A stretch of DNA of 36,402 bases from Clostridia bacterium (GTDB lineage Bacteria; Bacillota; Clostridia; Oscillospirales; Acutalibacteraceae). Position 1 is the first letter of the stretch. Every line of letters begins with the position of its first letter. The notes under the pieces were generated by a model. The model saw only the letters and a program-made list of their open reading frames with translations, had not been told where the DNA came from and did no database searches. Location of the stretch: positions 1-36,402 of the forward strand of contig JAFXGK010000013.1 of NCBI GenBank assembly GCA_017513245.1, in the 5' to 3' direction. This document shows, in pieces, positions 9,883 through 10,679 of this stretch. The position numbers and the translations under genes are program-made.

Positions 9883-9908
9883 TTATCAAATGGTGTACCT
9901 TTTGATAA
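9883..9908 (-). other. Left 26-bp serine-recombinase crossover site (inverted relative to the right site)
   Basis: On the minus strand this reads TTATCAAAAGGT, AC, ACCATTTGATAA: two 12-bp half-sites around a 2-bp core, the architecture of Hin/Gin/Cin sites. The half-site TTATCAAAAGGT shares its first nine bases with the TTATCAAAAACC half of hix. It matches the right site (10040-10065) at 20 of 26 positions. The asymmetric core is AC on minus here and AC on plus there, so the sites are inverted repeats. Confidence 0.75.
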
Positions 9909-10052
9909 TGGTCGCTTTTACCCAGTAAGGAATTGCTTTTTCAGTTATCCTTAAATAAATATCTTCAAAAATTCAATTTTTTCTTAAAAACACTTGCATT
10001 TTCTTTTCTTTTATGATAAAATATCATAGAATAAAATGACTCTCAAAAGGTA
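9896..10052. mobile_element. Candidate invertible promoter segment (about 157 bp)
   Basis: The segment between the two crossover cores contains no ORF but one good promoter. As assembled, that promoter reads rightward, away from the surface-protein operon and into the 3' end of the recombinase gene. Inversion would turn it to read leftward into the operon start at 9740. I see no strong leftward promoter between 9741 and 9990, so the present orientation is probably OFF. This is the arrangement of classic phase-variation switches; switching itself is inference. Confidence 0.7.
9994..10022 (+). promoter_or_regulatory. Promoter inside the invertible segment
   Basis: TTGCAT (9994-9999) and TAAAAT (10017-10022) are spaced by 17 bp, with a TGA extended -10 element just before the -10. 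Transcription would start about 10 bp before the right crossover site and run into its long palindrome. After inversion the same promoter would drive the operon with a leader of roughly 150-170 nt. Confidence 0.6.
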
Positions 10053-10065
10053 CACCTTTTGAGAG
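10040..10065 (+). other. Right 26-bp crossover site, embedded in a terminator-like palindrome
   Basis: CTCTCAAAAGGT, AC, ACCTTTTGAGAG: two perfect half-sites around the AC core. The palindrome extends outward (AAAATGA before, TCATTTT after; 10033-10072) to form 19-bp arms and ends in the recombinase stop codon. T-rich DNA follows on both strands, so it can also act as a terminator, both for the recombinase gene and for the promoter at 9994-10022. Confidence 0.75.
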
Positions 10066-10070
10066 TCATT

Positions 10071-10679
10071 TTATTTATTTCTCTGTATTCTATGCTCACG
10101 CAAGCGACGATAGAATGTAGCTTCACTCATATTACAAATCGCTAATACTTGTTTAAGGGATAATTGCTTTTTCTCCCACTTATTTATTAATTCATCAAAT
10201 TCAATCGGAACTGGAGATTCCGGTCTACCAAACTTAACACCCCTTACTTTTGCTGCGGCAATGCCTTGCGCTTGTCGTTTCTTTATATTTTCGCGTTCGC
10301 TCTGCGCCACAAAAGAAAGTATTTGCAAGACAAGGTCAGCAATAAACGTTCCCATTAAGTCTTTCCCGTTTCTCGTGTCAAGCAACGGCATATCAATAAC
10401 ACAGATATCAATTCCGATATCCTTAGTGAGTATCCGCCACTGTTTTTGGATATCTTCGTAATTGCGACCTAGGCGGTCGATACTCAGTATGTAGAGCAAA
10501 TCTCCCGCCTTTAACTTCTTGACGAGCTTCTTATACTGTGGCCGCTCAAAATCCTTGCCGGACTGCTTATCAATATAGATATTGCCCTTTGGCACATTAT
10601 TTTCGTCCATAACAATAAGCTGCCTGTCCTCATTCTGATCGATACTCGATACTCGCACATAACCATAAACATTTCCCAT
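10071..10679 (-). CDS. Hin/Gin-type small serine recombinase (DNA invertase)
   Basis: The product has 202 residues, the size of Hin-type invertases. The ATG at 10679 follows GGAGG; an in-frame extension upstream has no ribosome site. The N-terminal resolvase domain shows [14 protein letters not shown] with the expected nucleophile Ser11, [12 protein letters not shown] with the conserved arginines, and a long E helix ([18 protein letters not shown]). The C-terminus (about 145-195) is a resolvase-type helix-turn-helix ([20 protein letters not shown]). It cuts both strands at a 2-bp core through 5'-phosphoserine links. Two matching inverted sites lie directly downstream, so inversion of that segment is the likely job. 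A resolvase of a lost transposon is the alternative. Confidence 0.9.

Follow-up and report, generated by a model that had tools for sequence, protein, structure and literature searches.

The stretch of DNA considered here (36,402 nucleotides of a contig from a Clostridia bacterium, hereafter the window) places a short segment between genes for cohesin/dockerin proteins and a gene for a small serine recombinase, and it raises the question of whether this segment can be turned around so as to switch the neighbouring genes on and off. The answer developed below, from the sequence of the window and of related loci, is that the region very probably represents an invertible-promoter phase switch with terminators that are coupled to the flip. 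The preliminary description had proposed a pair of inverted 26-bp sites, each made of two 12-bp halves around a 2-bp core, and this pair was found as described. The left site (9883..9908, + strand) has the core GT at 9895-9896 and the right site (10040..10065, - strand) has the core AC at 10052-10053 as read on the + strand; the two sites are identical at 21 of 26 positions on recounting, one more than the 20 first given. The predicted invertible segment extends from core to core (9897..10051). The consensus site of the relatives, with up to three mismatches, occurs at two places in the window, which are the two known sites, and at none in 100 shuffles. In the whole assembly (1,715,845 bases, 1.72 Mb), AAAAGGTGTACCTTTT with up to one mismatch is found only at the two window sites, and the control, the same pattern reversed, matched once. 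With no more than two copies in the assembly, a generic repeat family was ruled out. In another genome, a pair of sequences that are 100% identical to the core part of the window site lies on opposite strands (G137:C4:3707-3732, +, and 3856-3879, -); the nearby recombinase match covers 52 bp at 81% identity, and the pair is perhaps an orphan switch.

The recombinase gene (10071..10679, - strand) abuts the right site, in agreement with the preliminary description. It encodes a protein of 202 residues from an ATG start with an AGGAGG ribosome-binding site, matches PF00239 with 89.6 bits and contains the RVSS and DRLGRN motifs of a resolvase catalytic domain, both aligned with those of Sin. Among solved relatives, Sin/Tn552 bin3 (101 bits) is closer in sequence than gamma-delta resolvase (71.5 bits) and the DNA-invertase entry 4m6f (56 bits), and the curated NCBIfam models that were matched, including that of Mpi invertase (41.6 bits against 272), all scored far below their cut-offs. 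The alignment with gamma-delta resolvase reaches residue 195 and the length of 202 residues is consistent with a short C-terminal helix-turn-helix DNA-binding domain, for which no Pfam family gave a match at E 0.001. The label "Hin-type" is loose, in that the sequence is nearest to Sin and gamma-delta resolvase rather than to the DNA-invertase entry. The five other PF00239 matches in the assembly are all in open frames of 451-626 residues, so that this is the only small PF00239 recombinase found there. Of 300 genomes searched from this bacterial family, 49 have a match to the recombinase at E 1e-40 or better, counting the genome of the window itself; the two other genomes of its genus have none. 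Two genomes have multiple relatives of the recombinase, seven in G082 and four in G217, and therefore one cell may run several such switches. Just upstream of the ribosome-binding site of the recombinase, a dyad, TGCCCAAATATT...AATATTGGGCA (10694..10723, - strand), is a candidate operator or hairpin; paired changes were seen by eye in locus L039, and the dyad may control the recombinase. Locus L209 (G269:C37) has, at an apparent contig end, the first part of a near-identical recombinase (96% DNA identity over 170 bases), which adjoins a large serine recombinase on the opposite strand. Elsewhere in the window there are a tyrosine recombinase, XerC/D-like and below cut-offs, at 324-1277 (-) and a tRNA-Leu(taa) at 11890-11976 (-).

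Related loci were sampled as 30 of the 71 matches in the 300 genomes above and the top 80 of at least 587 further matches, which gave 110 loci and, after removal of three duplicates, 107 non-duplicate loci with the window among them. A site pair with GT cores is present in 52 of the 107 loci. The rule used to find the pairs left their orientation free, and for unrelated cores a direct orientation would be expected about half the time; all 52 pairs are inverted. The layout is that of the window, recombinase-site-spacer-site-gene, with a core-to-core spacing of 124-257 bp (median 146) and, in 43 of 52 loci, the first core within 60 nt of the recombinase stop codon (median distance from stop to core 20 nt). 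The 55 loci that lack a GT-core pair, 7 with less than 300 nt and 48 with more after the recombinase, include some that use variant cores and others with no recognisable pair. Conservation of the bases beside the core is no evidence, because the GT-core rule fixes those bases and requires an A/T run. At position 11, which is left free by the rule, 196 of 208 half-sites have T; C at position 8 and T at position 9 each occur in 169 of 208.

Strand exchange by serine recombinases demands matched cores, and cores that vary from locus to locus while agreeing within each pair fit this demand. A stricter, core-free rule applied to 153 non-duplicate loci, including 50 viral-contig loci less 4 duplicates, recovered 54 pairs (46 of the 52 and 8 others), and the cores of the two sites are identical in all 54 (GT/AC in 47, AT/AT in 3, AG/CT in 2 and AA/TT in 2). 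The variant cores were seen in L021 and L044 (AG/CT), L046 and L050 (AA/TT), and L061, L123 and L129 (AT/AT), and L029, L082 and L097 also have other cores by eye; the AT core is palindromic and would allow deletion besides inversion. When inverted 20-mers (within 500 nt, at least 17 of 20 matching) were sought free of any site rule, they were found in 46 of 51 loci with a pair, compared with 2 of 47 upstream controls, and in 14 of 48 loci without a pair (one being an artefact of N), compared with 0 of 44; the corresponding figures for viral loci are 4 of 41 and 2 of 40. Two dyad sites with an identical 2-bp core in inverted orientation, the arrangement on which Hin-type DNA inversion depends, are therefore found both in the window and in its relatives.

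The affinity of the recombinase with Sin and gamma-delta resolvase, its nearest solved relatives, allows the sites to be viewed instead as res or resolution-type sites through which a mobile element is resolved or excised, with no part in gene control. The occurrence of related recombinases on many plasmids, with less than 60% identity in every case among the 5000 matches listed, is in keeping with such a role. Against such a role, the pair is inverted rather than direct and encloses a promoter, and the neighbouring open reading frame (ORF) is co-oriented in 47 of 51 loci. Among the 50 relatives on viral contigs that were examined, of 80 fetched, a GT-core pair is present only in a copy of L053, two others (L123 and L129) have AT-core pairs, and no near-identical loci in both orientations were found. 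On the plasmid, viral-contig and neighbour-ORF comparisons, resolution of a mobile element was judged extremely unlikely.

Within the segment, the promoter TTGCAT-17-TAAAAT reported earlier at 9994..10022 (+ strand) is present and is directed away from the operon, toward the 3' end of the recombinase gene, which would be the OFF state. By itself the window promoter is weak evidence, because a consensus scan of positions 1-18200 gave 40 promoter-like sites against 40.3 expected and did not list it. Its support comes from the relatives, in which the best spacer promoter scores at or above 95% of 40 shuffles in 37 of 52 spacers; these promoters are consensus matches under a home-made score. As in an inverton, the consensus promoter is located inside the putative flipped segment and the gene outside it on the reading side. 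In 43 of the 52 loci the best spacer promoter points toward the recombinase (toward loci), in 6 it points away (away loci) and in 3 it is ambiguous. For every away locus, the closest relative within the set of 52 is a toward locus.

Spacers were also compared between loci. L070, from the Ruminococcaceae MAG UBA3220, has a recombinase 73% identical to that of the window, and its first downstream gene encodes a dockerin protein of 1002 aa with 47% identity to the window counterpart; on these two identities it is regarded as an orthologous locus. The two spacers align with a score of 118.5 when one is reversed and 75.5 directly, compared with a mean of 76.5 (sd 7.8, maximum 105) for 500 shuffles; the best-conserved block of the reversed alignment contains the promoter, which in L070 faces the operon. 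The spacers of L011 and L049 similarly give 83.5 reversed and 50.5 direct, with shuffles reaching 76. Both comparisons were picked from an all-against-all blastn of the 52 spacers (E 1e-4), in which there were nine matching pairs: the six direct matches all join two toward loci, and the three reversed matches (L009-L070, L010-L070 and L011-L049) all join a toward locus to an away locus. The closest relative, L010/L199, with 96% recombinase identity, has the orientation of the window (218 direct, 76 reversed). A 77% reversed match of L011 to the window was discounted because it includes the site; when the two spacers alone were compared by blastn, the matches were short and at chance level in either direction. 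The two orientations were seen only as a difference between species. In L199 (L199:2229-5098) the first operon gene is 91% identical to that of the window over 507 residues and comes to an end at 510 aa; a DUF2927 protein is encoded by the next ORF of 100 aa or more on the same strand. The proposal that the region is an ON/OFF switch, captured by the assembly in the OFF state, appears to be the best reading because of the conserved layout, the inverted pairs (52 of 52), the matched cores (54 of 54) and the reversed spacer of the orthologous L070.

The sites have a further property that is absent from the preliminary description, namely that each is the centre of a long hairpin. The distal (left) site lies in a 46-bp near-palindrome (9873..9918) with 86% complementary arms, the inner of which would flip with the segment. 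The proximal (right) site lies in a hairpin (10030..10075) with perfect 22-bp arms (100% complementary), which overlaps the end of the recombinase gene, was scored as terminator-like and is predicted to be a bidirectional intrinsic terminator in the present orientation. RNA folding of the two hairpins gave z values of -6.4 to -11.6 relative to shuffles. The arms pair within one site in one orientation only: when the segment is inverted in silico, the energies of the proximal and distal hairpins change from -30.3 and -19.6 to -11.5 and -13.1 kcal/mol. By folding, a terminator is thus predicted in the OFF state and predicted to be weakened at the proximal site after inversion, as in a cwpV-type switch.

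Strong folding of both sites, together with the terminator-like character of the proximal one directly after the recombinase stop codon, could also be expected if the sites were transcription terminators only, one ending the recombinase gene and the other a stray or antisense terminator, with no inversion at all. Terminators of this kind would leave unexplained why the shared core is found nowhere else in the assembly, why the pairs are always inverted and their variant cores matched, why an orthologous locus has its spacer the other way round and why position 11 of the half-site is so constant despite being unfixed by the site rule. On the unique cores, the inverted pairs, the matched variant cores and the reversed spacer, this explanation was rejected as highly improbable.

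Pairing of the arms and its relationship to promoter direction were compared across the loci. Arm positions 11-22 within the proximal site are paired at 6.85 of 12 positions, compared with 4.87 under a permutation null (z 9.3, 0 of 2000 permutations), and pairing within the distal site is weaker (z 3.9, 1 of 2000); the arm partners expected after a flip give z values of 2.6 and 2.4, and the remaining pairings 2.1 and 0.8. The sites as assembled were then compared with the same sites after in silico reversal of the segment. The assembled state has the stronger hairpins in 38 of 43 toward loci and in none of 6 away loci (Fisher p=3.3e-5), or in 38 of 43 and 1 of 8, respectively, when variant cores are added (p 4.9e-5), all p values being approximate because the loci are related. 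The 3 loci with ambiguous promoters, excluded from the Fisher test, all favour the assembled state. The exceptions are five toward loci with stronger hairpins when inverted (L051, L056, L084, L091 and L101) and, among the 8 away loci of the set to which variant cores were added, L080, which has its hairpins as assembled. Most of the effect comes from the proximal site, where the median in toward loci is -17.4 against -8.8 kcal/mol and the hairpin is stronger as assembled in 37 of 43; the distal site contributes only weakly (27 of 43, p 0.03). Of the 6 away loci, 1 has a stronger proximal hairpin and 2 have a stronger distal hairpin in the assembled state (p=0.06 and 0.31, neither significant). 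Hairpin strength tracks promoter direction, and therefore inversion seems to flip the promoter and to make or break the terminators at the same time.

The hairpins could nevertheless have a more ordinary origin, in that the promoter is invertible and the arms simply form the normal terminator of the recombinase in the commoner (OFF) state, with no part in the switch. The proximal hairpin does abut the recombinase stop codon, with the median distance to the core given above, the distal hairpin is less conserved, and in the 43 toward loci the proximal 3' arm is rich in T whichever way it is read. The T fraction there is 0.58 in the direction of the OFF transcript and 0.42 in that of the recombinase transcript, and the higher value for the OFF transcript argues against this origin; in the same loci, the value for the ON transcript at the distal 3' arm is 0.29. 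Even an ordinary terminator would be weakened by inversion, as has been reported for the fimE transcript of E. coli (PMC2784873). A hairpin without a switch role is considered possible but rather unlikely.

In the mechanism proposed for the flip-coupled switch, strand exchange by the recombinase at the two inverted 26-bp sites would turn 9897-10051 around. In the OFF state, as assembled, the promoter would point away from the cohesin/dockerin operon and its transcript would enter the proximal site directly, where the complementary arms would fold into a strong hairpin, U-rich on its 3' side, that would end the transcript ahead of an antisense run through the recombinase gene. After inversion, the promoter would read into the operon, with its -10 element at about 9926-9931 (-), some 190 nt upstream of the ATG at 9740. 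The inner arms would be exchanged, both sites would lose much of their hairpins and transcription would pass more easily. Passage into the operon may be partial, because the inverted distal site keeps a hairpin of -13.1 kcal/mol. A single recombination event would in this way set the direction of the promoter and the formation of the terminator together.

The genes placed under this putative control agree with the earlier claim of a three-gene cohesin/dockerin operon starting at 9740, as there are three co-directional genes with short gaps and dockerin or cohesin domains, which probably form one operon. The first (6678..9740, - strand) encodes a 1020-aa Cys-repeat protein with a signal-like N-terminus and a C-terminal dockerin; the second (4913..6661, - strand) has a cohesin domain and, by eye, a dockerin-like C-terminus; and the third (3599..4903, - strand) has a cohesin domain and a C-terminal hydrophobic helix with a Lys tail, seen by eye in the translation from 4894, as a likely membrane anchor. 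Across the relatives, the first ORF beyond the distal site is co-oriented in the 47 of 51 loci already mentioned, compared with 29 of 47 nearest upstream ORFs. By a crude hydrophobicity rule, signal- or membrane-like N-termini are found in 31 of 47 same-strand downstream ORFs and in 13 of 47 upstream ORFs on either strand. A Pfam search covered 50 ORFs at or near the start of the downstream region in 47 loci, and by our reading of the matches 16 of the 47 loci have an envelope or surface family downstream. These families include collagen repeats, Listeria-Bacteroides repeats, BspA-type leucine-rich repeats, dockerin and VWA/GBS104, as well as RHS, LicD, GtrII and CDP-glycerol transferase. Some loci have non-envelope genes instead (UvrB, AMP-binding, PP2C and formyltransferase), and 13 of the 50 proteins have no Pfam family at E 0.01. 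A leader RNA was sought by an Rfam search of 9 loci, which gave tRNA only.

Taken more broadly, it appears on balance, and by a modest degree, probable that these loci represent a widespread family of serine-recombinase switches in Clostridia, in which the sites double as terminator halves and a single exchange reverses the promoter and at the same time builds or takes apart an intrinsic terminator. One of the two states would expose the recombinase transcript to read-through, which would be a feedback on switching, and in the window the switch would control a self-assembling cohesin-dockerin surface structure. The family is compact and recognisable, and its sites appear to be recombination sites and orientation-dependent terminators at once. 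If this is true, the state of a switch could often be read from an assembly by the pairing of the arms and the direction of the promoter. It also suggests how a promoter facing the wrong way avoids silencing its own recombinase. The probably phase-variable functions of mostly uncultured Clostridia would be extended to cohesin-dockerin assemblies, collagen-like proteins, BspA-type leucine-rich-repeat proteins, GBS104-like pilus-tip proteins and enzymes of envelope polymers. Invertible promoters themselves are already known. A literature search of titles and the beginnings of abstracts gave no description of this serine-recombinase switch family, and published inverton tables may well list individual members; as far as was searched, the recurring serine-recombinase design with orientation-coupled hairpins is new.

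In the hin system, as here, 26-bp sites with a 2-bp core flank a segment that contains a promoter and the half-site resembles TTATCAAAA; the hin segment is about 1 kb long. The recombinases of cwpV in Clostridioides difficile and of fim in E. coli are of the tyrosine type. The Hin/Gin invertases, as described for Salmonella hin in PMC3798978, resemble the present system in that a small serine recombinase acts at a pair of inverted dyad sites. Unlike in hin, the recombinase is here located outside the flipped segment, which is only 124-257 bp from core to core in the 52 pairs; unlike in Hin/Gin, the recombinase resembles Sin and resolvase more closely in sequence than it does the DNA-invertase entry, and the arms of the sites form terminators. 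Among gut-bacterial invertons, which include those of Clostridia (PMC11892184), short inverted repeats, often near surface genes and with an invertase nearby, resemble the present design. In the same 2025 survey, group 139, in which Clostridia predominate, is associated with tyrosine recombinases, and the term "serine recombinase" is absent from the main text; phase variation has been reviewed in PMC11868660. The fim switch shares an orientation-dependent termination of the recombinase transcript beside an invertible promoter, which is Rho-dependent in fim according to PMC2784873, and by analogy a terminator of the recombinase transcript that depends on orientation would have the same action here. 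The cwpV switch resembles the window in having a surface protein downstream and DNA that is mostly in the OFF orientation (PMC2784873). In cwpV, inversion makes a terminator and the promoter is outside the flipped segment (PMC2784873; PMC8844915), whereas in the loci described here the promoter is inside the segment and a serine recombinase adjoins the site.
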